From Acidimicrobiaceae bacterium (GTDB taxonomy: Bacteria > Actinomycetota > Acidimicrobiia > Acidimicrobiales > Bog-793), in the NCBI GenBank assembly GCA_025463965.1, contig JAODBN010000104.1, positions 1-32,701 on the forward strand: a DNA stretch of 32,701 nt, given 5' to 3'. The notes beneath the pieces are model-generated. The model was not told the origin of the DNA, searched no databases, and worked only from the letters and a program-made list of their open reading frames with translations. This document shows positions 6,831 to 26,486 of the stretch, piece after piece. Numbering within the stretch: the first letter of the stretch is position 1; each line of letters starts with the position of its first letter. Made by a program: the position numbers and the translations under genes.

Positions 6831-6846
6831 GGAGGCAACCGCCTCC
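6831..6846 (-). terminator. Hairpin downstream of GntR regulator 1
   Basis: GGAGGC-AACC-GCCTCC is a perfect six-pair hairpin 15 bases beyond the stop of the minus-strand regulator gene. No U-run follows, so it may act as a weak or factor-assisted terminator. Confidence 0.4.
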
Positions 6847-6861
6847 CACAACGTCAGCGCG

Positions 6862-11168: not shown

Positions 11169-12071
11169 CTACGAAGCGCTGATGGCGCGCTCGAGATCGT
11201 CCATGTTCAGCGCCCTGCTTCCCAGCGCAAGATCCGTACCACCGCTGACCATCGCCCGGAACACGAGCTTGCGCACTTGGCGCGCGTCAATCGAACGCTC
11301 CGCCAAGCGATCGGCCAGTGATTGCAGCCGGTCTCCTGCCAGGTCCATCGTGGTGTTGGGCAGTTCGCTGAGGCTGTCGCGCAGGATCTCGACGATCGCG
11401 TCGGCCGAAGGGGGGCCCAAGACCTCGAGGATGTCCACTCGGGACAAGACTGCCTCGTCGACAGCCTCGGGGAAGTTCGTCGTGGCGACGAACACCACGT
11501 TCGGGTGAGCACGTGCCACGTGGTCCAGCCCCGTCAGCACTGCTTCGGTCGAGCGATGGACATCCGCCGGGTTGGTGTCGGTCGACGTCCATCGTCTACT
11601 TACTGCAAGCCCCTCGACCTCGTCGATGAGCACCACGACCGGCGCGCCGTCGTGCGCGACGTCGGGGATCGCCCGTTCGAACAGTCGAGCGATTCCCCGC
11701 TGGGACTGGCCCAACAGCTCGCTCGGCAGCGCGTGTGGGTCGATGAGAACGAACCGCACGCCTGAGGCGATACCACGTTGGCGCAGCTCCCTCGCCGCGC
11801 GGTCGGCGAGCCCATGCGCCAACGTGGTCTTGCCGGTTCCGGGCGGCCCACTCAGAAGGATCAGGCCGTGAACCGGGAGTCCAACATCCGACATCTTCCT
11901 GCCAGGACCGAGGCAGAACAGCATCGCATTCAGGAGACGCTCCTTCACCCCGGGCGGGGTGATGATCCGGTCCCATCGTTCGGTCCACTGGTCAGCTGGC
12001 AGATCGACGAGGGCGGAGATGCCCGCCTGACGGTTGGCAGGAGAGAGCTCGAATGCGGACTCGTTGCTCAC
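11169..12071 (-). CDS. TRIP13/Pch2-like AAA+ ATPase coupled to the bicupin gene
   Basis: GTG 12071 overlaps the cupin stop (GTGA), giving 300 residues; the ORF track start at 12260 lies inside the cupin gene. It has a single AAA+ module: Walker A GPPGTGKT (75-82), Walker B VVVLIDE (145-151), sensor 1 around ATTN (196-199) and an arginine finger in LSRVDI. The stretch VLTGLDHVARAHPNVVFVATTN with FPEAVDEAVLSRVDI resembles the remodeller family TRIP13/Pch2, which unfolds HORMA-domain proteins, more than MoxR or FtsH. No HORMA protein, cyclase or CBASS effector is nearby. The N-terminal ~65 residues may serve as a substrate-recognition part. Translational coupling suggests it acts on the cupin protein or another enzyme of the island as a remodeller or activase; that is inference. 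Confidence 0.75.
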   Translation of the reverse strand: MSNESAFELSPANRQAGISALVDLPADQWTERWDRIITPPGVKERLLNAMLFCLGPGRKMSDVGLPVHGLILLSGPPGTGKTTLAHGLADRAARELRQRGIASGVRFVLIDPHALPSELLGQSQRGIARLFERAIPDVAHDGAPVVVLIDEVEGLAVSRRWTSTDTNPADVHRSTEAVLTGLDHVARAHPNVVFVATTNFPEAVDEAVLSRVDILEVLGPPSADAIVEILRDSLSELPNTTMDLAGDRLQSLADRLAERSIDARQVRKLVFRAMVSGGTDLALGSRALNMDDLERAISAS

Positions 12072-13105
12072 TCGGGACGCCCGGCATCCTTGTCCGGCCA
12101 CTGGATGCCGGACAGATCGGGGGCATCCAGCTTGGGCAGCTCGGACCACAGGTCCATCGGGTCGAGCAGGACGCGCATTAGATCGTAGAGGGCGTCGAAG
12201 TTGTGCACCCGGATCAAGCGAGCGGTGTTGTTCTTGTCGTCGTTGAAGTGTTGGTGCCATGCCCAGTGGTCGACGACCACGAGGTCACCAGGCCCCCACT
12301 CGTAGGACACGTCATCGATGTCGCTGTGGCCATGGCCGCTCACCACGTGGAGCCATGCTTCGCCACCGTGGCGGTGCCGTGATTGCCAGAGTCCGGGGGC
12401 AAGCTCGTGCATGACCGCGGTCAGGCCGGAAGTGCGGAACCCGATCGACTGGTCAACGAGAAATGCGCTTCTCGCCCCCCGCTTGGTGACGCGAGGCGTG
12501 ACCTCGTCCCAGCGCGTGATCAAGCGCCGGTCTTCGGTTGACTGGGTCTCCGCGAGCCGCTCGGACCGGCGGGCATAGCCGTCGGAGCCGGGCACCTTGA
12601 CGGTGCGAGGCGCCAGCGGGAGGTCCTTCACCGGCGTGTCCCCGCCGTCTTCGAGCATCGCCATGCCGAGGGCCTCGTGCATGGGCTGCACGCTCCAGGT
12701 CACAAAGCGGGCGTCGGTGGCCCCTTCGTTGCCATGTCGGTGCCAGGCCCATGCGGGCAGGTGGACGGTGTCCCAGGGACGCCACTGGATGCGAACGCCG
12801 TCGATCTCGGTCCAACCCGATCCTGACGTCACGAACATCATGGCGTCCCACGAGTGCCGGTGAATCGTCGAGGTGTTGCCTGCCGGGATCTCGTGCAAGG
12901 TCGCGTCGAGCACCTTGGTCGGGCTCTCCCCGTCAGCGCCCATGTAGACGCCCCGCCGCATCCGGCGGGCGGGCGAGTCCTCGAGCTTCACGTCGGCTTC
13001 TCGGATGATCGTCCGGCGATACTTCCGCCAGTCCTCGACCACCTGGGCACGTCGCTGCTTCTGCACCTCGTAATGCGTCACCGTCTGCGTCACGGTTTTA
13101 GCCAA
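12068..13105 (-). CDS. Double-cupin protein, gentisate-dioxygenase-like
   Basis: The ORF track start (13207) lies upstream of the predicted promoter. TTG 13105, seven bases after GGAGG, gives 345 residues and a leader of about 22 bases. Cupin 1 has HRHSWDAMMFVTSG and later AWHRHGNEG; cupin 2 has RHRHGGEAWLHVVSG and DHWAWHQHFND, so both barrels keep a HxH...E/D...H set that can bind Fe(II) or another metal. The layout is like gentisate/1-hydroxy-2-naphthoate dioxygenases that open aromatic rings, but it is too divergent for a substrate call. It is the first gene of a two-gene operon with the AAA+ ATPase, beside the Mo-hydroxylase operon, and could open a ring hydroxylated by that enzyme. Non-catalytic metal-binding roles cannot be excluded. 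Confidence 0.72.
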   Translation of the reverse strand: MAKTVTQTVTHYEVQKQRRAQVVEDWRKYRRTIIREADVKLEDSPARRMRRGVYMGADGESPTKVLDATLHEIPAGNTSTIHRHSWDAMMFVTSGSGWTEIDGVRIQWRPWDTVHLPAWAWHRHGNEGATDARFVTWSVQPMHEALGMAMLEDGGDTPVKDLPLAPRTVKVPGSDGYARRSERLAETQSTEDRRLITRWDEVTPRVTKRGARSAFLVDQSIGFRTSGLTAVMHELAPGLWQSRHRHGGEAWLHVVSGHGHSDIDDVSYEWGPGDLVVVDHWAWHQHFNDDKNNTARLIRVHNFDALYDLMRVLLDPMDLWSELPKLDAPDLSGIQWPDKDAGRPE

Positions 13106-13364: not shown

Positions 13365-15728
13365 TCACTCGTCGTCTGTCCGATCCGAGATCAACCGCCA
13401 GACACGCTCAGGCGTAAGCGGAATGCGATCGGGCCACCGGCCGATCGCCCGAGCCACCGCCGTGACGACGGCCGCTGCGATCGGATTCAAAGACCCTTCC
13501 CCCGAGCCCTTGGCACCGTACGGACCGACTCCGTCACGCCGCTCTGCCAGCATCAAGTCGATCCGCGACGGCAGGTCTCGCATGCGTGGAATCCGGTAGT
13601 CGACCAGGTTGGGGTTGACCACCTGGGGTCCGTCGTAGATGAGCTCTTCGAACAGCGAGAGACCGAGGCCCTGGGTAGCCGCGCCGAGATCCTGCGCTTC
13701 TACAGCCTGAGGATTGATGGCGAAACCTACATCCCCGACCGTCGCCAACTGCTCGACGGTGACGGCGCCGGTCTCGGGATCGATCCTGCAGCCGACACCG
13801 ACCATCCCGATCTCCCAGAACGGTGGCATCTGCTTGGTCACACCGGAGCGCCGCACCGTGCCCACTCCGGTCACCTCACCGGCCGAGGCCCCGAACCACT
13901 TCTTGACGATCTCGCCGTAGCGAAGGATCCTGTTGTCTTCGAGGGAGAAGCCACCGGGGCACTGGGTGATCGTGTCGATGTCGACGTTCTCCACTTCCGC
14001 CGCCATCGCCCGCATCTTGGAGAGCGCGTCGGCACAAGCCCTCTGGAGAGCAAGGCCGGCGAGGGTGGTCGTACGACTTGCTCCCGTGGTGCGCTCGTAG
14101 GCGGTCGAACCGGTGTCGGACTGGCGCACCGCGACCTGTCGCAGCTCGATGCCGAACTCCTCAGCAGCGATCTGTCCGAGCAATGAGCGGCTTCCCTGGC
14201 CCATCTCGGTCGATCCGCTGAGGACGATCACCGAGCCGTCCGTCTCTACTCGCACGGCTGCGGTCGACACGGGAAAGGCGCCGGCGTCGGAGGCAGAGCA
14301 AGCGAACCCCACCCCGTACCACTTCGTATTCGACGGCTCACCCATCTTCAAGGCCGAGAGGAGCATCTCGAGATCGGCGGGAAGATCCGCGTCGATCCCC
14401 CGCTTGCCTTGCAGGATCTCCTCGCCGGGCTGCACCAGATTCCGGCGGCGGATCTCTGCGGAGTCGATGCCGAGCTCCTCGGCGGCACGCTCGAGGTTGG
14501 TCTCGCCAGCAAGCACACCCTGAGGGGCACCGAAGCCCCGGTAGGACGACGCCGGAGACGTGTTGGTGTAGATCGAGCGGCCACGGACGCGCAGGTTGGG
14601 GACACGGTACGGGCCGAAGCAGCGATTGACCGACTTCGCGATCACGAGCGGGCTGTTGTCCGCATATGCGCCGGAGTCCATGACGATGTCGAACTCGCGA
14701 GCAATGAACCGGCCGTCGGCATCGAGGGCGCTACGTACCTTGACCACCGCGGAGTCGACACGCGTCGTGTAGATGGACTCTTCGACGTCCAAGACGAGCT
14801 TCACCGGCCTGCCGACGTGCCACGAGGCGACCGCAGCGAGCGGCTCGACCTTCGTGTACGACTTCGACCCGTAGCCGCCACCAAGGTACGGTGCGCGGAC
14901 CGTGACCGCCGAAAGCGGGAGGCCGAACACCCTCGCGAGGTCGTCACGGACCATGAACGGGTGCTGTGCGGTGCTGTCGACCTCCAGCCGACCGTTGGCG
15001 TAGGACGCGATCGCGTTGTAGGGCTCCATGGCGTACGCGTACAGCATGGGAAAGTGCATCGAGCTCTCGACGACGACCGCGGCCGACTCCCATGCAGCGT
15101 CGACGTCGCCCCACTCGAGCGTCACCTCGTGCGCGACGTTGTCGACCCGGGGCCCACCCTCTGGCGAGCCCGCGCCCTCGCCCGGGCTGAGGTTGTCCAC
15201 GTCCAGAAGCGGCAGGTCTACTTCGTGGACCAGCACCGCCCCAGCGGCGAGGGCGTCCTCCGCCGTGATCACCGCGGGCAGGTCCTCGTACTCGACCTGA
15301 ACGAGCTCGAGCGCGTCAGCTGCAGCCGCCTCGGTTTCTGCGACGACGAGTGCGACTGGCTCGCCGTAGTAGCGGACCTTGCCGTTCGCGAGGATCTCGT
15401 GATCGGCAACGATGTGCCCGAATCGCGAGCAGAGCCCCGTGAGGGTGTCGCAAGTCAGCACGGCGACGACTCCCGGCGCCGAGCGAGCGGCATCAGTGTC
15501 GATGGCGAGGATTCGGGCGTGTGCCCTGGTCGATCGGACGATCTTCGCGGAGGCCGATCCGCTGCGCCGCAGGTCTACGCAGTAGACCGCCGCGCCGGTC
15601 ACCTTCTCGAGGAGGTCGGGCCGGAGCACCGAGTGTCCGACATACGCGTGGCCGGACTCTTGGCGAGCCCCCTGGCCGTGCTCGCCCGAGCCGTCGAGGC
15701 TCGAGGAAATCTGGCCCACGTCAGCCAT
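13365..15728 (-). CDS. Molybdopterin-binding subunit of a xanthine-dehydrogenase-family hydroxylase
   Basis: ATG 15728 overlaps the 2Fe-2S subunit stop by eight bases and gives 787 residues. The N-terminal a/b hammerhead starts at LRPDLLEKVTGAAVYCVDL; the Mo domains show LGGGYGSK, SYRGFGAPQG, EMGQGSRS and the C-terminal GSGEGSLNP, with the catalytic Glu in GEG. The CO-dehydrogenase active-site loop (VAYRCSFR) is absent, so this is a hydroxylase of the xanthine/nicotinate/quinoline type rather than a CO dehydrogenase. It would take electrons from a carbon next to a ring nitrogen (or an aldehyde) and pass them to the small and FAD subunits. Last gene of the seven-gene operon; XdhC and MocA-like genes nearby would mature it. 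Substrate unknown. Confidence 0.88.
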   Translation of the reverse strand: MADVGQISSSLDGSGEHGQGARQESGHAYVGHSVLRPDLLEKVTGAAVYCVDLRRSGSASAKIVRSTRAHARILAIDTDAARSAPGVVAVLTCDTLTGLCSRFGHIVADHEILANGKVRYYGEPVALVVAETEAAAADALELVQVEYEDLPAVITAEDALAAGAVLVHEVDLPLLDVDNLSPGEGAGSPEGGPRVDNVAHEVTLEWGDVDAAWESAAVVVESSMHFPMLYAYAMEPYNAIASYANGRLEVDSTAQHPFMVRDDLARVFGLPLSAVTVRAPYLGGGYGSKSYTKVEPLAAVASWHVGRPVKLVLDVEESIYTTRVDSAVVKVRSALDADGRFIAREFDIVMDSGAYADNSPLVIAKSVNRCFGPYRVPNLRVRGRSIYTNTSPASSYRGFGAPQGVLAGETNLERAAEELGIDSAEIRRRNLVQPGEEILQGKRGIDADLPADLEMLLSALKMGEPSNTKWYGVGFACSASDAGAFPVSTAAVRVETDGSVIVLSGSTEMGQGSRSLLGQIAAEEFGIELRQVAVRQSDTGSTAYERTTGASRTTTLAGLALQRACADALSKMRAMAAEVENVDIDTITQCPGGFSLEDNRILRYGEIVKKWFGASAGEVTGVGTVRRSGVTKQMPPFWEIGMVGVGCRIDPETGAVTVEQLATVGDVGFAINPQAVEAQDLGAATQGLGLSLFEELIYDGPQVVNPNLVDYRIPRMRDLPSRIDLMLAERRDGVGPYGAKGSGEGSLNPIAAAVVTAVARAIGRWPDRIPLTPERVWRLISDRTDDE

Positions 15729-16221
15729 TCTCGCCTGCCTTGATCCCCTGGAGCACCCGCGCCGCCTGCTCGACCGCGGCAACGATCGGCGCGTAGCCGG
15801 TGCATCGACACAGATTGCCGTCCAGGTGCTCCAGGATCTCCTCCCGACTCGGCTGAGGAGTGCTGTCGAGGAGCGCCTTGGCCATCATGATGAAGCCGGG
15901 CGTGCAAAAGCCACACTGGAGAGCCATCTTTTCGACGAACGCGCGCTGCAGGGGATGGAGCTCGCCGTCGCGGGCCAGCCCCTCGATCGTGGTTACCGCC
16001 TTCCCGTCCACGTCCACCGCTAGGTACGTGCACGCGCTGACGGGCTCACCGGCGACGAGCACCGTGCAGGCGCCACAGATCTGCACGTCACAGCTCACCT
16101 TCGTGCCGGTCAGTGCGAGGTCCTCACGCAGCCAGTGCGCCAGGGTCGTCCGGACGTCGATCGCCTGGGTGATCGAGTTGCCGTTGACCGTGCAAGCGAT
16201 CTCCAAAGAGGTGACGCTCAC
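15721..16221 (-). CDS. 2Fe-2S subunit of the Mo-hydroxylase
   Basis: GTG 16221 overlaps the FAD-subunit stop in GTGA, giving 166 residues. The plant-type ferredoxin domain has CDVQICGACTVLVAG, followed by a C-terminal helical domain with QCGFCTPGF and GNLCRCTGY, which hold the two 2Fe-2S clusters. It carries electrons from the Mo site to FAD. All cluster cysteines are present. Confidence 0.93.
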   Translation of the reverse strand: MSVTSLEIACTVNGNSITQAIDVRTTLAHWLREDLALTGTKVSCDVQICGACTVLVAGEPVSACTYLAVDVDGKAVTTIEGLARDGELHPLQRAFVEKMALQCGFCTPGFIMMAKALLDSTPQPSREEILEHLDGNLCRCTGYAPIVAAVEQAARVLQGIKAGENG

Positions 16222-17021
16222 AGCGAGTCCCCTTGAATGGCGAGCTGCATGGCTCGCCGCACGTACACCTCGACGATGTGTCGCTTGTACTCCACCGAGC
16301 CGCTCAGATCCTCGACGAGGTCGATGCTCTCCGCGACGGCATGCGGGTCGAAGCCTGACGGCGAGTCTGCCTCGAGCACCAATGGGATCTCGCCCACCGC
16401 GCCGACGGCGAGACGCCATGGGCCTTCCGCTTCGTCGTGAACGAGCGCCACACCGACGGTCGGCCTCTCGGAGTACTGGTACTTGAGGTAGACGCCGCGA
16501 TAGCGGCGCACCTTCGGGATCAGCACGTTCACCAACAACTCCCCCGGTTCACGAACAGTCTCGTACGCGCCGATGAGGAAATCTCGCATCGCCACTTCAC
16601 GGCTGTCCGTCTGCGACTGAAGGGTCACGGACGCCTCCATCGCGCACAGAAGCGTCGCGATGTCAGAGCGCGGTTCTGCAAAGCACAGGTTGCCGCCGAT
16701 CGAACCTTGCGAACGAACTCGGGCGTTGCCGACCCGACGCTCAACCGAGGCAAGGAGCGCCGAGCCACTGAGCACGTCGTCGTCCGTTGCGAGCCTTGCA
16801 TGGGTCACCGCGCCGCCAACGAGGACGTCATCGCCGTCCCAGTCGAGGCGGCCCAGCTCCGCAATGCCCTTCAGGTCCACCAAGCACCGTGGCCGGAGAA
16901 CGTTCATCTTCATCGCCATCAGCAGCTCGGTCCCGCCGCAATAGGGAACGGAGACATCATCGAGCAATCCAAGGGCCTCGTCGAGGCGGTCGGGGCGCTC
17001 GAGCGCGAAGGGCGGGAGCAT
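16218..17021 (-). CDS. FAD-binding subunit of the Mo-hydroxylase
   Basis: A 267-residue subunit of the CoxM/XdhB type. ATG 17021 overlaps the CoxG-like stop by one base (TGATG). The FAD region shows VPYCGGTELLMAMKMN and VGNARVRSQGSIGGNL, then a C-terminal CO-dehydrogenase flavoprotein domain. It accepts electrons from the 2Fe-2S subunit and passes them to NAD, quinone or another acceptor. The order FAD - 2Fe-2S - Mo with tight overlaps indicates a heterotrimer. Confidence 0.92.
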   Translation of the reverse strand: MLPPFALERPDRLDEALGLLDDVSVPYCGGTELLMAMKMNVLRPRCLVDLKGIAELGRLDWDGDDVLVGGAVTHARLATDDDVLSGSALLASVERRVGNARVRSQGSIGGNLCFAEPRSDIATLLCAMEASVTLQSQTDSREVAMRDFLIGAYETVREPGELLVNVLIPKVRRYRGVYLKYQYSERPTVGVALVHDEAEGPWRLAVGAVGEIPLVLEADSPSGFDPHAVAESIDLVEDLSGSVEYKRHIVEVYVRRAMQLAIQGDSL

Positions 17022-17479
17022 CAGCCCGACGCGAGTGCCTTCTCGGCGCTTCCGAAGAACTGCTCGAGGATCTTGTCCGCCTTGCGGCGGATAGTCCCCG
17101 CGCCGAGCGTCGCGATGCGCCCCGTGACTTCGTAGGTGCCGACGACATTGATGGAGCTGCCCCCATCGGGCGCAGCCTCCAGCTGCAGTGCCGCGTCCAC
17201 CGAGATCCTGGAGCCGACCTGGCGATCTTCACCGGAGGCAGCGATCCGCACGAGCTCGAGCGGGCGCAGCTCGGTCACCCGGATATCGAGGTCGGCTCGC
17301 AGCCGAAAGGGTCCCACCTGGTCCTTGAGGACGGCGATGTACTGCTCGAGGAACGTCTTTTCTTGTACGTCCTCGACGATCGGCACCCAACTCGCGACCG
17401 TGCTCACGTCGAGGAGCACCTTCCAGGCCGCCTCCGGCGCTGCCGCGACAGCGATCGATCGATCGAACGAGGTGGCCAT
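17021..17479 (-). CDS. CoxG-like SRPBCC protein
   Basis: A 152-residue SRPBCC-fold protein of the CoxG family (FDRSIAVAAAPEAAWKVLLD and a basic C-terminal part with GTIRRKADKILEQFF). CoxG in carboxidotrophs helps anchor or recruit the Mo enzyme to the membrane, and its domain can bind hydrophobic ligands such as quinones. It precedes the FAD subunit with one shared base and lies 12 bases after LLM-1. A role in linking the hydroxylase to the membrane electron acceptor is inferred. Confidence 0.82.
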   Translation of the reverse strand: MATSFDRSIAVAAAPEAAWKVLLDVSTVASWVPIVEDVQEKTFLEQYIAVLKDQVGPFRLRADLDIRVTELRPLELVRIAASGEDRQVGSRISVDAALQLEAAPDGGSSINVVGTYEVTGRIATLGAGTIRRKADKILEQFFGSAEKALASG

Positions 17480-17491
17480 GGCGTACCGGCC

Positions 17492-18487
17492 CTACGCCCG
17501 GGCGCCCTGGGCGCGCAGCTTCGGCAGCACCTCGTTGCCGAGCAGCTCGATCTGGTCGAACCAGCGCTCGAACTTGAACCGGAAGTCGAACACGAGGTGG
17601 TCGACGCCAGCCTCTTCAAACTTCTTGCACTCAGCGACAGCATCGTCCGGCGAGCCGACGATGAGCTGTCCCTCGAGGTCCTCCACCGTCTCGAACGTTC
17701 CGGAAGGCGGCTTCACGCTGAACTTGGCCTTGTTCGCCCAGGCGAGCAGCCCAGGAACGTTGACGTCCTCCAGGGCCTTCTCTCGCGTCTCCTCGATGGA
17801 GGTGGGAGGAATGACACCGATAGTCGGAAGCTTGCTTCCCTTTGCGTCGGAGAGCTCGGCCATCGTGGCGATGCGCTGCTTGAGCGTCTCGAGGGCGATA
17901 CGACCAGGCATCCAGCCGTCACAGAATTCGACCGCCAGGCGCGCCGAGCGCGGCGTCGCTCCGCAGTACCAGAACGGCACCGGACCACCCACCGGCTTCG
18001 GCTCGATCGTCACGTCGGTGAATGAGAAGTTGGCGTCCTTGTAGGAGACCTCATTCTCGGTCGCGACCTTGCGAAGGATCTCCGCGTTGGACCGTACGAG
18101 CTCCACGCGGTCCCGATCGCCCCACTCGATGGCCTCGAATTCGTGGTCGAACGTGCCGGCACCAAAGCCGAGGATCAGGCGCGGTCCGACGAGCTGGGTA
18201 ATCGTTCCCGCCATGAGCGCCGTGACGAGCGGGTGCCGGAAGGGGATCAACGAGCCGGTGCCGAGCTCGAGACGCTCGGTCACCGCGCCGATGGCCGTGA
18301 GCGTGGTCAGGGCGTCGTAGAAGGTGCGGTTGGGCTTTTCCATCTCGCCGTGCGGCTCGAAGACGAGGTGGTCCCGCACCCACACCGAGTCGAAGCCGAG
18401 CGCCTCGGCGCGGCGCGCCCCCTCCAGCAGGTTTTCCTTGGACGCGTGCTCACCGAAGTGCGGGAGCAGCAAACCGTATTTCGTCAT
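17492..18487 (-). CDS. LLM-class flavin- or F420-dependent oxidoreductase (LLM-1)
   Basis: A 331-residue luciferase-like TIM-barrel oxidoreductase. MTKYGLLLPHFGEHAS, GFDSVWVRDHL and LELGTGSLIPFRHP are family hallmarks; IVGSPDDAVAECKKFEEAGVDHLVFDF is the usual C-terminal part. ATG 18487 follows GGAGG by five bases. Such enzymes use reduced FMN for oxygen insertion (RutA-like ring opening) or F420 for hydride transfer; the sequence does not settle which. Position between the cyclic amidohydrolase and the Mo-hydroxylase genes suggests a step on the same ring compound. Confidence 0.85.
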   Translation of the reverse strand: MTKYGLLLPHFGEHASKENLLEGARRAEALGFDSVWVRDHLVFEPHGEMEKPNRTFYDALTTLTAIGAVTERLELGTGSLIPFRHPLVTALMAGTITQLVGPRLILGFGAGTFDHEFEAIEWGDRDRVELVRSNAEILRKVATENEVSYKDANFSFTDVTIEPKPVGGPVPFWYCGATPRSARLAVEFCDGWMPGRIALETLKQRIATMAELSDAKGSKLPTIGVIPPTSIEETREKALEDVNVPGLLAWANKAKFSVKPPSGTFETVEDLEGQLIVGSPDDAVAECKKFEEAGVDHLVFDFRFKFERWFDQIELLGNEVLPKLRAQGARA

Positions 18488-18530
18488 CTGGACCTCCGAT
18501 AGAAGATGTTCCCGGTCGCCATGAGGTGAC

Positions 18531-19907
18531 CTAGCGAGGGGTAGCCATCAAGGCTTGGCCGGTCTTGCCGACGACTTCCCCGTCACGGAAGATGAACTCT
18601 CCCCGCAACATGGTGGAGTCGATGCGAACACTCGAGGTGCGGCCGTTGTAGGGAGTCCATCCGCACCGGGAGAGGACCTGGTCGTCGGTGATCACCCAGG
18701 GATCGTCGAAGGCGGCAAGCACCAGGTCCGCGTCACAACCCGGCTCGATCGCGCCCTTGACCCCGCCGAGGCCGAACTTCTGGGCCGGTCGGTATGCGGC
18801 GGCGTCCACGGCTCGATCGAGCGGGATCCGACCCGCAGCGACCGCGTCGAGCAGGAGCGGGTACAGGAATTGGATGCCGGGTGTTCCGGTGTGGGCGGAC
18901 CACATCTGGGTCCAGCCGATTTCCTTTTCTTCCCGGGTGTGGGGAGCGTGGTCCGATGAGTAGACGTCGATCGTGCCGTCGAGCAGCCCCTCCCACACCG
19001 CAGCGCGGTGATCGTCGGGCACCCAGTACGAGAGGGCATAGGGGCCGAGCTTCTCTACGTCGTCCCACGTCGACAGGAAAAGTGCCCAGTGGTTGACCTC
19101 GCAGGTCACGTCGACCCCGCGTGCCTTGGCCCTGCGAACGGCGTCAATGGAGCGCCTCGTCTGCATGTGCGCGATGTGAATCGGACAGTTCGAGGCCTCT
19201 GCGAGGCGCAGGATGACGTCGATTGCCGTGTCCCAGATCACACCGTCACGGGCGGCGTATGCCTGCGCGTACCCCTGTGGCGTGTTCTCGCCCCGCGCCA
19301 GGAACTTGCCCTCGATGTAGTCCATGAGGCTCTGGTCGTGCGGGTGGATGATGAAGCGCTTCCCGGTGGGTGCGATGAGATCCATCATCTCGAGCAGGTG
19401 ACCGTGGTCGTGCATCCCCGTCCCTGCGGGATGCGGGTAGGTCCTGCCCGTATCGACGACCATGTAGATCTTGAACGCACGAATGCCGGCGTCCGACATG
19501 GCTTGGATGTCGCCGAGCTGGGTGGGAGCCGGATTGTGGTTGTAGTCCACGATCGACTTCTCGCGGTAGAGGTCGAGGACCTCGGTCAAGGTCTCGAGGT
19601 TGGTGGTCGGAGGCTCCAGGTTCGGCATCCCGAAGATCGTCGTGACGCCACCCACGGCCGCTTGGATTCCGGTCGTGGTGATGTCCTCTTTGTGCGTGTA
19701 CCCGGGCTCACGCGTGTGAACGTGAACGTCCACCATGCCCGGCAGCACGGTGAGGCCCGACGCGTCGATCACCTCGGCATCGATGGAAGCTCCCGTCTCC
19801 GGCGTCACCAGGCCAGCGATGCGGCCGTCCGAGACGAGGACGTCCAGGTCGTGGACCCCGGTCGGGGTCACTACCCGTCCTCCGGTGATCCGCTTATCGA
19901 TAGCCAT
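18531..19907 (-). CDS. Cyclic amidohydrolase, dihydroorotase/allantoinase/hydantoinase type
   Basis: A 458-residue metal-dependent amidohydrolase. DVHVHTREPG (60-69) gives two metal His, KIYM the carboxylated Lys (about 146), IIHPHD and HIAHMQT further His ligands, and YSSDHAPHT the catalytic Asp. ATG 19907 makes a TGATG overlap with the hydrolase gene; GTG 19910 is also possible. The family opens cyclic amides such as dihydroorotate, allantoin, hydantoin or dihydropyrimidines. Presence in a catabolic operon rather than near pyr genes argues against biosynthetic dihydroorotase. This is the best hint that the substrate is, or becomes, a cyclic amide. Confidence 0.87.
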   Translation of the reverse strand: MAIDKRITGGRVVTPTGVHDLDVLVSDGRIAGLVTPETGASIDAEVIDASGLTVLPGMVDVHVHTREPGYTHKEDITTTGIQAAVGGVTTIFGMPNLEPPTTNLETLTEVLDLYREKSIVDYNHNPAPTQLGDIQAMSDAGIRAFKIYMVVDTGRTYPHPAGTGMHDHGHLLEMMDLIAPTGKRFIIHPHDQSLMDYIEGKFLARGENTPQGYAQAYAARDGVIWDTAIDVILRLAEASNCPIHIAHMQTRRSIDAVRRAKARGVDVTCEVNHWALFLSTWDDVEKLGPYALSYWVPDDHRAAVWEGLLDGTIDVYSSDHAPHTREEKEIGWTQMWSAHTGTPGIQFLYPLLLDAVAAGRIPLDRAVDAAAYRPAQKFGLGGVKGAIEPGCDADLVLAAFDDPWVITDDQVLSRCGWTPYNGRTSSVRIDSTMLRGEFIFRDGEVVGKTGQALMATPR

Positions 19908-20848
19908 CACGCATCTCCCAGCATCTTGAGGGTCTCGGTGTTCATGTCATTGCTCTGAATCCGGATGCCGCCGCCCTGGAGGTACCGGTCGAACCACTCG
20001 ACGATCCTCGGAGTGACGGAGTTCCAGTAGCGGTCGTACGCCGCGTAGTGGGACGTGTGGCGCTGGATCACGAGCTCGCGCGGCCCGAGCGCAGCCGCGT
20101 AGAGCGCCTCCGCGTGGTCCGTGGGAGTGGTCGCGTCGTTCTCCACCCCGATGATGAGCAGAGGGGTCCGCAGGCGACGGGCGGCATCGATGGGCCGGTA
20201 GTCGAGAATTTCGTCCGCGGCGCTCAGCGGGACGGCTGAAGGAATGCGGTCGTCGACGTCGGCCTTCATGTTCGTCGACCGCCGCTCCTGGGTCGGAACC
20301 ATGATCTCTTCGCGCGGGTGCACCAGGCGTCCCTTGCCCGTAACGACCCGTTCACGACGGTCGACGTCGAGAGCGCGGAGGAACGCGAGCCAATCGTCCT
20401 CAGAGCGCATCCGATGGAGCCAGTCGCGGCCATCGGCCACCGGCAGCTGGCTGACCACGGCGCGAATGCGAGGGTCCGCCGCAGCGAGAAGCACCGCATT
20501 GCCGCCGCCGGTCCCGCCAGAGCCGAAAGCCCCAATGGCGTCCGCGTCGACGTCCTCCCTGGTGGTCAGGTAGGAGACCGCATTCCGCAGGTCTTGCAGC
20601 TGGATTGCCGGCGAGAGGATCCGCTCACCCTCGGAGTCGCCGAAGCCTCGGTAGTCGAACACGAGCACTGCGAAGCCGGCGTCGGTCAATGCCTCGTGGT
20701 AGCGCACATAGAGCTTCGCGTCCTTCAGGCCGAGCCAACCCGGTCCTTGAACAACCGTCCGGAAGGGGCCGCTTCCCTCGTCGGGAGTCCGCCAAAGGGC
20801 GGAGACCTGACTGCCCTCGCTGTAGAACGACACTGCAGAAGATCGCAC
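19907..20848 (-). CDS. Alpha/beta hydrolase with non-canonical nucleophile elbow
   Basis: A 313-residue alpha/beta hydrolase of the dienelactone-hydrolase/XynX-like kind. GTG 20848 has AGGAG nine bases upstream. Core motifs are FDYRGFGDSEG and a late acid and base region, GVENDATTP and RHTSHYAAY. The elbow, however, reads AFGSGGTGGGNAVL, not GxSxGG; relative to relatives it appears to have one extra residue, and a Ser or Thr in an unusual place would have to act. It is the first gene of the catabolic operon, about 80 bases from a GTATAC promoter. It may be a hydrolase of an amide, ester or C-C bond, or a catalytically altered member. Confidence 0.8.
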   Translation of the reverse strand: MRSSAVSFYSEGSQVSALWRTPDEGSGPFRTVVQGPGWLGLKDAKLYVRYHEALTDAGFAVLVFDYRGFGDSEGERILSPAIQLQDLRNAVSYLTTREDVDADAIGAFGSGGTGGGNAVLLAAADPRIRAVVSQLPVADGRDWLHRMRSEDDWLAFLRALDVDRRERVVTGKGRLVHPREEIMVPTQERRSTNMKADVDDRIPSAVPLSAADEILDYRPIDAARRLRTPLLIIGVENDATTPTDHAEALYAAALGPRELVIQRHTSHYAAYDRYWNSVTPRIVEWFDRYLQGGGIRIQSNDMNTETLKMLGDA

Positions 20849-20933
20849 CAGCGATCACTCCTCTCGGGTCAGCCATCCACCCGGCTTTCGGGGCGCCAAC
20901 GGCCGGCTGCCCTCGAACTCAAGACTGGGAGGC

Positions 20934-20962
20934 ATCATGTTGCCTGTATACGATCTTGTCAA
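20934..20962 (-). promoter_or_regulatory. Promoter of the catabolic operon with GTATAC operator in spacer
   Basis: Minus strand: -35 TTGACA (20962-20957), 17-base spacer, -10 CATGAT (20939-20934). GTATAC (20951-20946) lies five bases after the -35, almost as in the two ABC promoters. Predicted start is near 20927. Confidence 0.7.
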
Positions 20963-21023
20963 GCTATCCCGTGCCCTGATCTGCTCTCGGCGACGACCAG
21001 CGCGCCAGGCGCGCGACGTTGAT

Positions 21024-21036
21024 CGCCAAATTGGCG
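21024..21036. promoter_or_regulatory. Palindrome upstream of the catabolic-operon promoter
   Basis: CGCCAAATTGGCG is a perfect inverted repeat with a single central base, about 62 bases upstream of the -35 box. It could be an activator site; nothing similar was noticed at the other two GTATAC promoters. Confidence 0.3.
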
Positions 21037-21046
21037 CGCCGCTTCA

Positions 21047-21121
21047 GCCAACGCCTCCCCGGTCGGGCGACAGCCCCTCCCCGAGGCTCCCGGTTTCCTG
21101 GGGCTTAGCGGGCGCGTTGGC
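21047..21121 (-). terminator. Large stem structure after LLM-2
   Basis: GCCAACGC (21047-21054) and GCGTTGGC (21114-21121) close a 75-base region that contains further complementary blocks (AGCCCC and GGGGCT). It begins nine bases after the LLM-2 stop on the minus strand. A terminator or 3' stabilising structure is likely; no U-run. Confidence 0.4.
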
Positions 21122-21129
21122 GCAAAGGC

Positions 21130-22116
21130 TCAGCGCGTGAGGCCGGGCAGTACCTCTCTCCCGAACACCTCGATCCACTCTTGCTGGTTGCGCCCAACAT
21201 TGTGCAAGTAGACGCGGTCGATGCCGAGGTCCAAGAACTTCTGGATCTCCTTTTGGTGAAGATCGGGAGACGAGCTGATCAGCATTCGGCCCTCGAAGTC
21301 CTCGGGCCGCACGAGCTTGGCCATCTGCTCGAAGTCAAAGGGCGACCGAATGTCCTGCTTGGGGAACTTCATCCCACCGTTCGGCCACTCGGTCATCGCA
21401 TTCATGAGCGCCTCTTCGTCGGTCGGTGCCCACGAGAGGTGCAGCTGAAGGATCTTGGGCAGCGTTGCTGCGTCTCGCCCTGCCTCCTTGGCACCCTCGT
21501 CGAACTTGGCGAGGAGGCCCGCCACCTTCTCCGGGGCTGCGCCCGGGGTGATGATGCCATCGACTGACTTGCCGCAGCGCTTTGCTGTGATGGGACCGGC
21601 GGTCGCCACGTAGATCGGGGGCGGCGGCGCCGGGAGGGTCCACAGCCGGGTCGTCTCAAGGATGAAGGTGTCGCCCGAGTGCTTTACGTCCTTGCCCGTG
21701 AACAGCTTTTGAATGATCTCGATCGCTTCCCACATGCGACTGAGCCGCGCAGGAGCCTCGGGCCAGTACCCACCGACGATGTGCTCGTTGAGCGCCTCGC
21801 CCGAGCCCAGGCCGAGCCAGCTGCGACCTGGATACATGGCCTCGAGCGTCGCCGCCGCCTGAGCCACGATCGCCGGGTGGAAGCGGAACGACGGACAGGT
21901 CACACCCGGGCCCATGTCCCCGGTCGTCTGCTCACCAAGCGCGGTGAGCACGTTCCAGACGAACGCCGCGTGCCCCTGCTGAGGGACCCATGGCTGGAAG
22001 TGGTCAGCAGCCATCACTCCTTCGAAGCCGGCCTGTTCGGCCTGCGCCGACAATCGGACCACTTCGGTGGGGTGGAACTGCTCCAGCATCGCTGCGTAGC
22101 CGATATGTGGCTTCAT
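21130..22116 (-). CDS. F420-dependent LLM oxidoreductase, FGD/TIGR03557-like (LLM-2)
   Basis: ATG 22116, nine bases after GAAGGG, gives 328 residues; the ORF track start at 22281 is upstream of the predicted promoter. MAADHFQPWVPQQGHAAFVW, GPGVTCPSFRFHPAIVAQAA and SWLGLGSGEALNEH are the hallmarks of F420-dependent glucose-6-phosphate-dehydrogenase-like enzymes. These transfer hydride between F420 and alcohol or ring substrates in the cytoplasm. It is divergent from the class II aldolase. A reductive or dehydrogenating step in the island pathway is inferred; it is not close to LLM-1. Confidence 0.85.
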   Translation of the reverse strand: MKPHIGYAAMLEQFHPTEVVRLSAQAEQAGFEGVMAADHFQPWVPQQGHAAFVWNVLTALGEQTTGDMGPGVTCPSFRFHPAIVAQAAATLEAMYPGRSWLGLGSGEALNEHIVGGYWPEAPARLSRMWEAIEIIQKLFTGKDVKHSGDTFILETTRLWTLPAPPPPIYVATAGPITAKRCGKSVDGIITPGAAPEKVAGLLAKFDEGAKEAGRDAATLPKILQLHLSWAPTDEEALMNAMTEWPNGGMKFPKQDIRSPFDFEQMAKLVRPEDFEGRMLISSSPDLHQKEIQKFLDLGIDRVYLHNVGRNQQEWIEVFGREVLPGLTR

Positions 22117-22452
22117 GGCCGATCGCCCTTCTCTTTGCTCGTGGCGCGCGCCGCCCGTCCGGCGTGTGCCGGGAGCTGGCGGTTCCGCCAGTCTCGCCGC
22201 CGTATCATGTATCCAATTGCCGGCTGGAGCAACTGCTCCGGCCTCGTCCCGGGCAGGGCGTCGGCCTCCCCGAGAGACCACGGGGGTTCACCTCTTCGAC
22301 GCCACGAGCTCACAACCGCCTCGCCGCAGTCACTCGCCGGTCCGCCGCAATCGGGTGTCGGACCGAAGTGCGCCACGCGCCGCCCTTGTTGGAGCATTTC
22401 GACCACTGGGGTTACCGTAGCCAGTTCATTGCCCCGGGTGAACGGACGGTCG
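22117..22452. other. Divergent intergenic region between LLM-2 and class II aldolase
   Basis: A gap of 336 bases. It holds the LLM-2 promoter (22204-22232) and a hairpin GGAGC-AACT-GCTCC (22226-22239) that overlaps its -35. A weak plus-strand candidate for the aldolase (TTGGAG, 18-base spacer, TACCGT at about 22412) lies nearer the aldolase start. ORFs crossing it in the track are extensions of the flanking genes. Confidence 0.4.
22204..22232 (-). promoter_or_regulatory. Promoter of LLM-2 with GGATACATGATAC operator-like word
   Basis: Minus strand: -35 TTGCTC (22232-22227), 17-base spacer, -10 CATGAT (22209-22204), the same -10 as the catabolic operon. GGATACATGATACGG covers the -10 and resembles the TGGATACAT word at the cupin promoter. 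It may be a variant site for one of the FCD regulators. Confidence 0.45.
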
Positions 22453-23160
22453 ATGCCAAGTACAGACGTGGAAGTAGACCTGCGAGAGCAATTGGCGACC
22501 TGCACCCGGATCCTCGTCTTCAAGAACATCCTGGACTTCAGCGGCCATCTCAGTGCTCGCATCCCCGGAACGGACCACATTCTCATTCAGCCCCGCGATG
22601 CGAGCCGGGCGGCGCTTGTTCCCGAGGAAATCCTCGTGGTGAACCTCGACGGCGAGGTCATCGATGGCAGCGGGCCACCCCCGGCGGAGACGGTTATTCA
22701 CACCGGCGTGTACGGCGCCCGGCCCGACGTCAACTTCGTCTGCCATGGGCATCCAACACTGTCCACCACCTTCTCGATGGTGGACCGACCGCTCGTCGCC
22801 GTGCGGCACTTCGCCTATCGGGCCCCCAAGGGCCTGCCGGTCCACCCCGACCCCACGCACATCCGCTCCCGGGAGCAAGGTCAAGCGGTCGCGAAGACGC
22901 TTGGTACCGGCGGGGCGTGCCTGCTGCGCTCGCACGGAACCGTTGTGGTCGCCCCGAACATTCAGGAGCTCCTCATGGACTGCCTCGACCTCGAGGAGAA
23001 CGCTCGCACCCTGCTGTACGCCACGCAGCTCGGCGAGGTGCTGCCGCTCGATGACGAGGAAGTACGTCTCATCGGTGAGAGCTACGGTCGCGCGGGCCAC
23101 CGCCCCAACAAGCTCTGGGAGCACTTCGTGCACGTCGGGCGAGCGGCCGGGATCCTTTAG
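22453..23160 (+). CDS. Class II aldolase/adducin-family protein
   Basis: ATG 22453 gives 235 residues; the longer ORF in the track runs through the divergent gene and promoter. The zinc site is complete: Glu79 (PPPAET), His98 and His100 (CHGHP) and His161 (LRSHGTV). FKNILDFSGHLSARIPG near the start is typical. Relatives are L-fuculose- and ribulose-phosphate aldolases/epimerases and several non-sugar retro-aldolases or decarboxylases. In this context it could cleave a ring-opened hydroxy acid. The ribosome site is weak. Confidence 0.83.
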   Translation: MPSTDVEVDLREQLATCTRILVFKNILDFSGHLSARIPGTDHILIQPRDASRAALVPEEILVVNLDGEVIDGSGPPPAETVIHTGVYGARPDVNFVCHGHPTLSTTFSMVDRPLVAVRHFAYRAPKGLPVHPDPTHIRSREQGQAVAKTLGTGGACLLRSHGTVVVAPNIQELLMDCLDLEENARTLLYATQLGEVLPLDDEEVRLIGESYGRAGHRPNKLWEHFVHVGRAAGIL

Positions 23161-23234: not shown

Positions 23235-23263
23235 TTGACTGTTCGGTATACGTACTACAAGAT
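23235..23263 (+). promoter_or_regulatory. Promoter of ABC operon 2 with GTATAC operator in spacer
   Basis: TTGACT (23235-23240), 17-base spacer, CAAGAT (23258-23263). GTATAC (23246-23251) lies five bases after the -35, as at 20934-20962. Predicted start is near 23270, leaving a leader of about 217 bases. The 326-base gap 23161-23486 holds this promoter and the folded leader and no gene. Confidence 0.65.
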
Positions 23264-23486: not shown

Positions 23487-24365
23487 ATGGAGCCAACGAT
23501 GATCGCCGTTGACGACCTGGGAAACACCACCAACCCGCCAGAAGCCCCTGTCGTGGACCGTAAGGTCGCTCGCCCGTCGAGGCGAGCATGGAGGCGAGGC
23601 GCGAGCTTGGCGGCCGGACCGCTGTCCGTGGTCGTGTTCCTCGGTATCTGGCAGATCGCAGGAGGACGGATCAACCCGATCCTCTTGTCGCAGCCGACCG
23701 CGGTCGCTCAAGCGTTCGGCCACTTGGCCAGAACCGGAATCTTGTGGCCCGCGTTCGCGCGAGCCATGGAAGACCTTCTCGTTGGATACCTGTCGGCAGT
23801 CGTCATCGGCATTGGCACCGGCGTGCTCATGGGCCGGCACCGTGCAGTCGAGAGAGTGCTGAGCCCCTATGTCACCTTCTTCCAGGCCACACCACTGATC
23901 GCCCTTACCCCGCTGGTGGTCATCTGGTTCGGTCTCGGCTTCATGTCCGAGATCGCCATCACGTTCCTCCTGGCAGTGTGGACGATCATCATCAACACCT
24001 GTGAGGGCGTGAAGTCCACCCCCCCACTCCTGCTCGACATGGCCCGGATTTATCACGCCTCCGAGCGCAAGGTGGTCCGAAAGATCGCCATACCCAATGC
24101 GGTCCCCTACATCTTCGCCGGACTGAAGATCGCGGTCGCAAAGGCATTGATCGGCATGATCATCGCTGGCATGGACATCACCTTGAAAGGCCTCGGCGGC
24201 CTTGTCACCACTTACGGCAACGAATTTCAGACCGCTTCCCTGCTCGCCGCGGTGATCACCTCCTCGGTGGTGGGCGTCATTTTGACCCTTCTCATCAACG
24301 TCCTACGACGGGTGATCGCTCCGTGGAGCATCAATGTCGAGGTGAAGACGAAGGGCCGCTGGTAG
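23487..24365 (+). CDS. ABC transporter permease, NMT1/sulfonate class (operon 2)
   Basis: ATG 23487 has GGAG six bases upstream and gives 292 residues; ATG 23499, also with GGAG six bases upstream, is equally possible. The ORF track start (23412) has less support. About six membrane segments are seen. FFQATPLIALTPLVVIWFG, IFAGLKIAVAKALIGM and GLGGLVTTYGNEFQTA match the operon-1 permease almost throughout, so the two are paralogues or came together by transfer. First gene of operon 2, with ATPase and binding protein following; order differs from operon 1. Confidence 0.87.
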   Translation: MEPTMIAVDDLGNTTNPPEAPVVDRKVARPSRRAWRRGASLAAGPLSVVVFLGIWQIAGGRINPILLSQPTAVAQAFGHLARTGILWPAFARAMEDLLVGYLSAVVIGIGTGVLMGRHRAVERVLSPYVTFFQATPLIALTPLVVIWFGLGFMSEIAITFLLAVWTIIINTCEGVKSTPPLLLDMARIYHASERKVVRKIAIPNAVPYIFAGLKIAVAKALIGMIIAGMDITLKGLGGLVTTYGNEFQTASLLAAVITSSVVGVILTLLINVLRRVIAPWSINVEVKTKGRW

Positions 24366-24459: not shown

Positions 24460-25290
24460 ATGTCGAATGCAATGAGCACCGACCGTGGACCCTTGCTCGA
24501 GGTCAGTCACGTCACAAAGCGGTTCCCACGCCCAGAAGGGCCTGGACTGCTCACGGTTCTCGAGGACATCAACCTCTCGCTCGCACCCGGAGAGTTCGTC
24601 AGCCTGATCGGGCCCTCTGGGTGCGGGAAGACGACGCTGATCCGCTTGATGAGCGGGCTCATGGGATGCGACGACGGCTGGATCGCCCTACGTAACGAGC
24701 GGTTCGAGTCCGTTCCGAAGGGAGTGGGCTTCGTGTTCCAAGAGCCCGCCCTTCTGCCCTGGTGCACGGTCTCCGAGAACATCGCGTTCGCCTTGACCGC
24801 ATCCGCCGACGCCGGCAAGCGACGGCCGGGGGTCGACGACCTCGTCAACAAGCAGCTCGAGCTGACGAGCTTGACCCCTTTCGCCAGTTACTACCCAACG
24901 CAGATCTCCGGTGGAATGCAACAGCGGGTCGGCCTGGCACGGGCTCTCGTCGGGAGCCCGGATGTGCTGTTCATGGACGAGCCTCTCTCGGCTCTCGACG
25001 CCTTCACCAGGACCGCCCTACAAGCGGACCTCGGTCGCATCATCGAGGCCGCGGCGACAACGACCGTGCTGGTCACTCACGACATCGACGAGGCGATCTT
25101 CATGTCGGACCGAGTGGTCGTCATGAAAGCGAACCCCGGTGAGATCGCCCAGATCGTGGACGTGCCGCTTGCCCGACCCCGCAGCCACGAGGCGCTGCTC
25201 GACGATGCGGACTACGTCGCCCTGCGCACCGAGCTCATGCGGATCCTGCTCAAGGTGTCGCCACACATCTTCAACAACTCAGGCAACTGA
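24460..25290 (+). CDS. ABC transporter ATPase, NMT1/sulfonate class (operon 2)
   Basis: A 276-residue ATPase with Walker A GPSGCGKT (51-58), Q-loop FQ (about 94), signature ISGGMQQR (149-156; Ile replaces the usual Leu), Walker B VLFMDEP (169-175) and H-loop VTHD. ATG 24460 is kept; ATG 24472 is an alternative and both ribosome sites are weak. It lies 94 bases after the permease and drives the second importer. Confidence 0.88.
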   Translation: MSNAMSTDRGPLLEVSHVTKRFPRPEGPGLLTVLEDINLSLAPGEFVSLIGPSGCGKTTLIRLMSGLMGCDDGWIALRNERFESVPKGVGFVFQEPALLPWCTVSENIAFALTASADAGKRRPGVDDLVNKQLELTSLTPFASYYPTQISGGMQQRVGLARALVGSPDVLFMDEPLSALDAFTRTALQADLGRIIEAAATTTVLVTHDIDEAIFMSDRVVVMKANPGEIAQIVDVPLARPRSHEALLDDADYVALRTELMRILLKVSPHIFNNSGN

Positions 25291-25394: not shown

Positions 25395-26486
25395 ATGGAG
25401 CGAATGACAGGACAATCAGGTCCACAGCTCTCAACCCGGCGGCGCCACGGCCGCTTCGGGACCCCGGCATTGGCGATGAGCGCCTTGGCCATCGCTGGAA
25501 CGGTCACCGTGGGGCTCGCTACGGGATCGGGCGCATCGCAGGCACACGCGACGAGCGCCGCGACGACCTCGTTCCCTCCCAACCTCAAGGGCAAGAGCAT
25601 CGTCTTTGCGGACGGTTCGCCGCCCCAGCAGAGCGATACCCAGCTCTACCTGATGACGAAGATCCTCAAGTCTTGGGGGGCAGACGCCCGGATCGTCAAC
25701 GAGACCGGTGACCCAGCTGCAGTGACCGTCGTGCTCTCGGGAGAGGCCAACGCGGCGTACATCAGCACCGGTGACGTGATCAACTCTCACCTGGTCACGT
25801 TCGGCCCCGCACAGCCCCGGCTCGACTACCAGTTCGTCACGACGTCCAGCATCCACAACATGTCGCAGTTGGCCGGAAAGACCTTCGGATGGTCCAACCC
25901 GCATGGGGTCGAGGCCGAGATGTACGGAGTGCTGCTGCGCAAGTTCCACGTGAACCCGAACAGCGTGACGACGGCGCTCGCAGGCTCCTCGAGCGTGCGG
26001 GAAGCGGCCCTGCTGGTGGGCAAGATCCAGGCCACCTTCGTGTCGACCGCGCAGTGGGACACCCTGAAGGCGCACGGGGGGTTCAGGGACATGGAGAACA
26101 TGGCCCAGGTCGCTCCCCAGGTCGCCGACTCCCTCATGGCCGCCTCCCCCGGGTGGCTCGCGAAGAACCACTCAAGCGCGGTGGCGATCGACGAGGCATG
26201 GCTCGAGGCAGCCAAGGAATTCAACACGCAGAAGTCGAAATGGATCGCCGGAGCTGACGTGTACGCGGCCGGATCCGCCACGAAGGCGGACGCGACTGCC
26301 CAGTACGACGTGTTCAAGCTGAACAACACCTTCCCCGCCACGTCGGACGCGTTCTCACCGGCCCACGCCCGGTTCAACGAGGTCGTCGCGCAGTCGGTCG
26401 GGGCGCTCGTAAGTGAGCCACCGCTTTCGAAGTGGTTCATCGACGGGGATTGGACCGACGCACTCAAGGCACTGAACATCAAGTAG
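25395..26486 (+). CDS. NMT1/THI5-like ABC substrate-binding protein (operon 2)
   Basis: ATG 25395, four bases after AAAGGA, gives 363 residues; the GTG at 25368 in the track is less likely. The signal peptide has a basic start (RRRHGRFG), a hydrophobic core and an AHATSAA cleavage region, without lipobox Cys. FPPNLKGKSIVFADG corresponds to FVPPKLKGTDMSFIMDG in the operon-1 protein, and LVGKIQATFVST to LVAGRIDATMLS, but the middle is much more different. The two proteins probably bind related but not identical molecules (for example substrate and a derivative). Confidence 0.78.
   Translation: MERMTGQSGPQLSTRRRHGRFGTPALAMSALAIAGTVTVGLATGSGASQAHATSAATTSFPPNLKGKSIVFADGSPPQQSDTQLYLMTKILKSWGADARIVNETGDPAAVTVVLSGEANAAYISTGDVINSHLVTFGPAQPRLDYQFVTTSSIHNMSQLAGKTFGWSNPHGVEAEMYGVLLRKFHVNPNSVTTALAGSSSVREAALLVGKIQATFVSTAQWDTLKAHGGFRDMENMAQVAPQVADSLMAASPGWLAKNHSSAVAIDEAWLEAAKEFNTQKSKWIAGADVYAAGSATKADATAQYDVFKLNNTFPATSDAFSPAHARFNEVVAQSVGALVSEPPLSKWFIDGDWTDALKALNIK

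Follow-up and report, generated by a model that had tools for sequence, protein, structure and literature searches.

The draft genome of a soil-type actinobacterium of the Acidimicrobiaceae totals 3.54 Mb on 438 contigs and is 76.9% complete. Its contig JAODBN010000104.1 carries a set of catabolic genes, which we analyzed over the whole 32.7-kb contig (the window). Genes were called and scanned against Pfam and NCBIfam, and all genes named in a preliminary description of this DNA were present. We conclude that the gene set is a real, conserved, and previously undescribed catabolic regulon. Its core operon (20833-13365, minus strand) consists of the following genes.

19907..20833, minus strand: ABH, the first gene, an alpha/beta hydrolase (YcjY/UilS-like fold) without the canonical GxSxG serine
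18531..19907, minus strand: AMIDO, a cyclic amidohydrolase of the dihydroorotase/hydantoinase branch with an Arg/Asn/His carboxylate site like that of dihydroorotase (DHOase)
17492..18487, minus strand: LLM1, a luciferase-like oxidoreductase resembling TIGR03619, predicted to be probably an F420H2-dependent reductase
17021..17479, minus strand: CoxG-like protein, presumed partner of the molybdenum (Mo) hydroxylase (PF06240, 55.5 bits; cut-off 22.2)
16218..17021, minus strand: FAD subunit of the Mo-hydroxylase (FAD_binding_5)
15721..16221, minus strand: [2Fe-2S] subunit of the Mo-hydroxylase ([2Fe-2S] domain)
13365..15728, minus strand: molybdopterin subunit of the Mo-hydroxylase, xanthine dehydrogenase family (MoCoBD)

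Core operon and its conservation

Successive intergenic gaps from ABH to the Mo subunit measure -1, 43, 12, -1, -4, and -8 bp; judged by this spacing, the seven genes are one transcription unit. The Mo-hydroxylase has the three subunits, with MoCoBD, FAD_binding_5, and [2Fe-2S] domains, that mark the xanthine dehydrogenase family, and its Mo subunit scores 415.5 bits against the XdhA equivalog, below the cut-off of 780. The single operon proposed earlier, joining a cyclic amidohydrolase and an LLM enzyme to a hydroxylase of this family and CoxG, is therefore confirmed, with all members present and tightly packed.

AMIDO homologues were sought in 84,980 species genomes, and the best 79 loci (42-77% identity) were retained. 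They include Jiangella, Mycolicibacterium, Actinomadura, Solirubrobacter, Gaiella, Chloroflexota, Acidobacteriota, and Deltaproteobacteria. The ABH-AMIDO-LLM1 core (the triad) is a conserved operon: in 39 of the 79 loci its genes directly follow one another on a single strand, mostly overlapping or within 30 bp, and contiguous triads are found in Actinomycetota, Chloroflexota, and Myxococcota. The order AMIDO-LLM1-CoxG-FAD-FeS-Mo is the same as in the window in Jiangella and in loci L057, L058, L066, and L091, and two acidobacterial loci (L092 and L094) have the triad genes rearranged and intermixed with Mo-hydroxylase genes. The preliminary description would have been refuted by neighbors that break up in related genomes; they are instead conserved in related and distant genomes alike.

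Within the class, the association of AMIDO, ABH, and the Mo subunit exceeds chance. Among 296 genomes of the class, AMIDO homologues with 50-58% identity occur in 13, the source genome being counted in both figures. All 12 of the other AMIDO-clade genomes fall among the 14 other genomes, of 295, that carry ABH (p 1e-19). Likewise, every other genome with a Mo subunit of the close clade carries ABH (5/5, p 1e-7).

These distributions bear on an alternative that we consider unlikely, in which the Mo-hydroxylase is an aldehyde or aromatic oxidase in a separate branch, AMIDO, LLM1, and ABH degrade a pre-existing cyclic ureide or imide, and one regulon serves several substrates. Only 15 of the 39 contiguous triads have a close Mo-subunit homologue within ~10 kb, and some relatives have genes for a LigB-type dioxygenase or a gentisate-like bicupin instead, as would fit separate branches. 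However, the Mo-hydroxylase belongs to the same tight transcription unit in the window, Jiangella, L057, L058, and L091; it is intermixed with the triad in L092 and L094; and its clade is confined, within the class, to ABH genomes.

The source genome has a second, paralogous Mo-subunit gene (65-66% identical) on contig C176 (L051), followed by genes for an LLM enzyme, an ATP-binding cassette (ABC) permease, an ATPase, and a GntR protein; this operon reaches the ends of the 6-kb contig. Four loci (L070, L071, L074, and L087) suggest an aromatic branch: along with the triad, they encode a LigB-type extradiol dioxygenase, what looks like a LigA small subunit, an amidohydrolase-2 protein, and an apparent CoA-transferase. 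A more distant AMIDO group (41-44%; L047-L050) has another Mo-hydroxylase, no ABH, and, read by eye, a small RidA-like protein near AMIDO. Plasmid searches with AMIDO returned only Azospirillum relatives (38-39% identity) in a different neighborhood (DUF3830, formamidase), those with ABH, LLM1, and the Mo subunit returned no matches, and neither did the viral contigs searched. The Azospirillum plasmid genes (L053 and L054) are annotated as allantoinase or dihydroorotase, and their neighbors encode DUF3830, acetamidase/formamidase, and two ABC binding proteins; no description of that set was found.

Predicted activities of AMIDO, ABH, and LLM1

The binuclear metal site of AMIDO (HxH, Lys146, and Asp319; dihydroorotase type) is kept in 98-100 of 100 homologues, and Arg66, Asn96, and His323, counted from the ATG at 19907, are kept in about 97 of 100. 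In a HMMER alignment, the latter three align with the equivalent Arg, Asn, and His in the solved dihydroorotase 3mpg, a set that is not common to allantoinase 3hm7 or L-hydantoinase 1gkr. AMIDO therefore has the residues that characterize dihydroorotase, namely HxH, the carboxylated Lys, His, and Asp, as well as the Arg/Asn/His ligands. In dihydroorotase, these ligands bind the substrate carboxylate, and the substrate of AMIDO therefore probably carries a carboxylate as well.

Scores against curated models are lower than this likeness might suggest: for dihydroorotase, 249.2 with TIGR00857 (cut-off 279.05) and 284 with PRK02382 (cut-off 452); for the allantoinase equivalog, 272.2 (cut-off 357.85); and for D-hydantoinase, 209 (cut-off 393). 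The source genome has a separate PyrC in a pyrB-pyrC-carA run, and this run, together with the failure of every family cut-off, rules out AMIDO as PyrC. AMIDO was also rejected as the allantoinase AllB, both on its equivalog score and because 3hm7 is without its Arg/Asn/His.

These comparisons make it very improbable, in our estimate, that the gene set is a disguised form of an already known pathway for purines, pyrimidines, or nicotinate, for example one that uses allantoin or dihydroorotate, or the reductive urate route. Such an identity would explain why allantoinase, dihydroorotase, and L-hydantoinase are the families nearest AMIDO, and the succession of xanthine dehydrogenase, reductase, and amidohydrolase does parallel reductive urate catabolism (PMC12507026). 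Yet AMIDO lies below every equivalog cut-off, the Mo subunit falls well short of XdhA, and the scans of window proteins recovered no gene of the SsnA, uricase, ureidoglycolate, Rut, or Pyd kind.

ABH is confidently modeled as an alpha/beta-hydrolase fold (predicted local distance difference test, 90.8), and the closest structure is 7qjm (template-modeling score, 0.87-0.90). The GxSxG nucleophile serine is absent in 56/56 aligned family sequences (the window's and 55 homologues). In ABH, the sequence SGGTGGG forms the elbow that joins strand 95-105 to helix 107-119. Asp233, His262, and Thr108 are invariant in the family, and residue 105 is nearly always Ser or Thr; Thr108 or residue 105 may serve as the nucleophile.

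LLM1 is also modeled confidently (92.3). All 34 LLM1 members match TIGR03619, a predicted F420 family (best E 9.5e-52), with the window's own protein scoring 155.2 against a cut-off of 166.9, and the strongest sequence relatives of solved structure are F420 enzymes.

We also asked which genomes can make F420. PF01933 was discarded as a marker because its matches extend to E. coli and other genomes in which F420 synthesis is not expected. CofD and CofE served as further markers because CofG alone misses Mycobacterium sp. NAZ190054 and Jiangella genomes in which both match; Ruania (L077), F420-free by the first marker, was F420-positive once they were included. The source genome has CofE over its cut-off and pieces of CofD, as expected of a host that makes F420. 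In the Chloroflexota class tested, F420 is nearly ubiquitous (54 of 61), and most actinobacteria make it, so co-occurrence is informative only in Acidobacteriota. There, five of five cluster genomes carry CofD or CofG, compared with CofE in 6 of 59 other Acidobacteriota sampled (p 6e-5), although the comparison is weakened by the different markers and by shared ancestry. In L058, from a palsa Micrococcales metagenome-assembled genome (MAG), the catabolic gene run itself includes, at 3139-7650, FbiC (1465 bits, cut-off 1018) and CofC (131.7, cut-off 105). Another copy of FbiC lies elsewhere in that genome.

F420 transfers hydride and does not activate O2; LLM1 would therefore reduce its substrate if it uses F420H2, and we regard a reductase acting before ring opening as more likely. 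In a review, LLM-type enzymes are listed as direct F420-substrate hydride transferases (PMC8498797).

A conceivable but doubtful alternative is oxidative ring opening, with LLM1 as an FMN-dependent monooxygenase that uses O2 to open the hydroxylated heterocycle, like RutA and pyridine monooxygenases, and with AMIDO and ABH processing the products. FMN monooxygenases are numerous among LLM enzymes, and the LLM1 fold search mixes F420 and FMN enzymes; its best match is an uncharacterized luciferase-like protein of Bacillus, and several of the next best include FMN monooxygenases. Also, one triad genome (L104, a Myxococcales MAG that may be incomplete) has no clear F420 gene, with no match to CofD or CofE and no CofG over its cut-off. 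This alternative conflicts with the TIGR03619 match of every LLM1 tested, the F420 enzymes among its strongest solved relatives, the co-occurrence in Acidobacteriota, and the F420 genes within L058; moreover, no flavin reductase partner gene was recognized in the window.

Probable regulon and surrounding genes

Putative promoter/operator sequences precede the core operon and two importers.

20946..20962, minus strand: TTGACA-N5-GTATAC, upstream of the ABH operon
6485..6502, minus strand: TTGACA-N6-GTATAC, upstream of importer 1
23235..23251, plus strand: TTGACT-N5-GTATAC, upstream of importer 2

GTATAC occurs exactly three times in the window, always as TTGACW-N5/6-GTATAC and directly before one of these units. 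The arrangement was found 0 times in 100 shuffles, a figure that is optimistic because the motif was spotted by eye in intergenic DNA before any statistics. A cross-genome test, largely independent of that discovery, found 8 GTATAC sites in 8.3 kb upstream of ABH in relatives, compared with 0.79 expected from the intergenic background (P 1.8e-6); the eight include the window's own site, and three of the eight loci are closely related to each other. GTATAC is absent from the other Mo-hydroxylase cluster of the source genome, on C176. Given this common promoter/operator, the operon and both importers probably form one regulon, and the simplest reading of GTATAC is a GntR operator that overlaps the promoter.

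The surrounding genes are listed here.

3412..4227, minus strand: importer 1 ABC ATPase
4268..5350, minus strand: importer 1 NMT1-type binding protein (PF09084, 44.9 bits; cut-off 20.5)
5497..6369, minus strand: importer 1 ABC permease
6862..7551, minus strand: GntR1, FCD-type regulator, 53% identity to GntR2
7842..9038, plus strand: XdhC, Mo-cofactor maturation factor
9035..9601, plus strand: MocA-like molybdenum cofactor cytidylyltransferase
11169..12071, minus strand: AAA ATPase, with a 4-bp overlap with the bicupin gene
12068..13093, minus strand: bicupin, gentisate-1,2-dioxygenase-like (cupin domains), which recurs beside the triad
21130..22116, minus strand: LLM2, luciferase-like oxidoreductase of the F420_G6P family, upstream of the operon (TIGR03557, 287 bits; cut-off 210.4)
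22468..23160, plus strand: class II aldolase/adducin-family enzyme (aldolase-II; aldolase or decarboxylase), upstream of the operon
23487..24365, plus strand: importer 2 ABC permease
24460..25290, plus strand: importer 2 ABC ATPase
25476..26486, plus strand: importer 2 substrate-binding protein, with a homologue in the importer adjoining LLM1 of L105
26598..27350, plus strand: short-chain dehydrogenase (SDR), a peripheral member
27490..28191, plus strand: GntR2, FCD-type regulator

The XdhC, MocA, bicupin, LLM, and aldolase genes previously placed around the operon are thus all there. Two NMT1-type importers had also been proposed. The second has its ABC partners, but its binding protein has no Pfam match, and it is called NMT1-like because of those partners and an identity of only 25% to the importer 1 protein (E 1e-17). 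In Pseudolysinimonas, a homologue of this binding protein and its ABC partners adjoin LLM1.

The bicupin and AAA ATPase genes are a second unit, 271 bp downstream of the Mo subunit. The bicupin resembles the solved gentisate dioxygenase 3bu7 and scores 65.4 bits against the gentisate 1,2-dioxygenase equivalog (cut-off 442); the ATPase might act in assembly or metal loading. The pair is linked in Chloroflexota (bicupin 65%), and the ATPase recurs beside bicupin or smaller cupin genes in relatives. LLM2 scores 303 bits against TIGR03885, a family called FMN-dependent (cut-off 398.7), and is linked at 78-80% identity in L058, L070, and L091. A 493-codon open reading frame (21679-23160) contains aldolase-II, but its first half runs antisense to LLM2 or through intergenic DNA; the true start lies near 22468. 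Five Mycolicibacterium-type loci have aldolase-II beside LLM1 or close to it. The retro-aldol cleavage proposed earlier is only one possible role, since decarboxylases share the class II aldolase fold.

Proposed pathway and known systems

The regulon probably serves growth on an N-heterocyclic compound that bears a carboxylate. From the observed gene content, core conservation, promoter/operator, active-site residues, and F420 co-occurrence, we infer a reaction order, a substrate type, and a product. The two NMT1-type ABC importers would take up the N-heterocycle, and the Mo-hydroxylase, assisted by CoxG, would put an oxo group on the ring. LLM1 with F420H2 would then reduce a ring double bond, with loss of aromaticity, so that AMIDO, with its binuclear metal and dihydroorotase-like residues, could hydrolyze a nonaromatic cyclic amide. 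ABH, with its remodeled nucleophile elbow, would hydrolyze the open-chain amide, ureide, or ester. Finally, LLM2, the SDR, and aldolase-II, joined in some relatives by aspartate ammonia-lyase (AspA), would pass the product to central metabolism, possibly as aspartate. With a Mo-hydroxylase to act before LLM1 and a cyclic amidohydrolase after it, hydroxylation, dearomatization, and hydrolysis make an economical order. We judge this general mechanism (Mo-hydroxylation, F420H2-dependent dearomatization, DHOase-like ring opening, and hydrolysis of an N-heterocycle) to be somewhat better than an even bet.

The preliminary description, which is partly supported and broadly right, already outlined a route in which an N-heterocycle or cyclic amide is imported and hydroxylated and its ring opened. 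Its series of steps lacked a reduction, whereas the F420 evidence favors reduction by LLM1 before ring opening. The reductive step, the common promoter/operator of importers and operon, and the hydrolase without the usual serine go beyond it.

Several points weigh against the proposed mechanism: the many triads without a close Mo subunit nearby, the existence of AMIDO relatives without ABH and LLM1, the TIGR03619 score of the window's LLM1, the mixed fold search, the F420 result for L104, the uninformative Chloroflexota, and the reservations attached above to the shuffle and acidobacterial figures.

AspA lies within the operon of three Mycolicibacterium-type loci (681 bits in one tested, at the equivalog cut-off) and also beside L058, and an asparaginase lies beside L109; aspartate or an aspartate-type product is therefore a fair guess. 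Hydantoin-5-acetate or dihydroorotate would each open to N-carbamoyl-aspartate. A more specific and quite speculative version, which we think improbable as it stands, is an aerobic F420H2 route that would oxidize a heterocyclic carboxylate (imidazole- or pyrimidine-type), then dearomatize it reductively, and lead through N-carbamoyl- or N-acyl-aspartate to aspartate, with ABH, as a widespread serine-less hydrolase, performing the final amide or ureide cleavage. Literature searches on imidazoleacetate/hydantoin and on F420/orotate found nothing relevant.

If true, the general mechanism would make F420 a part of mainstream N-heterocycle catabolism in Actinomycetota, Chloroflexota, and Acidobacteriota, assign a function to some of the very numerous F420/LLM enzymes that still lack one, and establish a new catalytic type among alpha/beta hydrolases. 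The three-gene core provides a compact annotation signature for many genes that are probably misnamed "allantoinase" or "dihydroorotase family," and cultured carriers (Jiangella, Mycolicibacterium, Actinomadura, and Pseudolysinimonas) make the reading testable.

As had been proposed, the gene set very probably stands outside the known purine, Rut pyrimidine, and nicotinate pathways, and no curated family or paper covering it was found, in literature that omits most subscription journals. The closest parallel is the reductive urate pathway, which uses XdhD, a reductase (YgfK/UacX), the cyclic amidohydrolase SsnA, and HyuA, and in which a putative F420-dependent luciferase-family enzyme replaces the reductase in Chloroflexota (PMC12507026). 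It has in common with the proposed route an enzyme of the Mo-hydroxylase family, reductive dearomatization, and ring cleavage by a cyclic amidohydrolase. However, SsnA comes from another amidohydrolase branch than AMIDO, ABH is unrelated to the hydrolases of that pathway, and the Mo enzyme of the window is presumed to be oxidative. The SsnA family, HyuA, YgeW/X/Y, UacX, and UacY were not among the family matches of the window proteins scanned.

The RutA-RutG set is also missing, the only RutA match being LLM2 (23.5 bits, cut-off 498). The triad could mirror the ring reduction, cyclic amide hydrolysis, and ureide hydrolysis of the reductive pyrimidine (Pyd) pathway, but it has LLM1 and ABH, from other families, in place of PydA and the carbamoyl hydrolase, and the AMIDO carboxylate site is DHOase-like rather than hydantoinase-like. 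The reductase of the anaerobic nicotinate pathway is not known to be an LLM enzyme. That pathway proceeds by nicotinate dehydrogenase, 6-hydroxynicotinate reductase, and enamidase, and fungal nicotinate breakdown is a further parallel (PMC9304392). It resembles the proposed route in hydroxylation, partial ring saturation, and C-N ring opening by an amidohydrolase, but its product carries no hint of aspartate, and enamidase was not among the listed PDB matches of AMIDO.

For the individual enzymes, PyrC shares with AMIDO the metal ligands, carboxylated Lys, and Arg-Asn-His carboxylate site, but AMIDO differs in falling below all cut-offs, in its catabolic context, and in coexisting with a separate PyrC. 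Hydrolases of the UilS/YcjY type (7qjm and 5xb6) share the fold and the conserved Asp and His of ABH but have a canonical GxSxG Ser where ABH has an SGGTGGG-type elbow. In our best reading, the gene set would follow the same logic as the reductive breakdown of urate and pyrimidines, assembled from other enzymes, and would be a variant, not a new kind, of reductive N-heterocycle catabolism.

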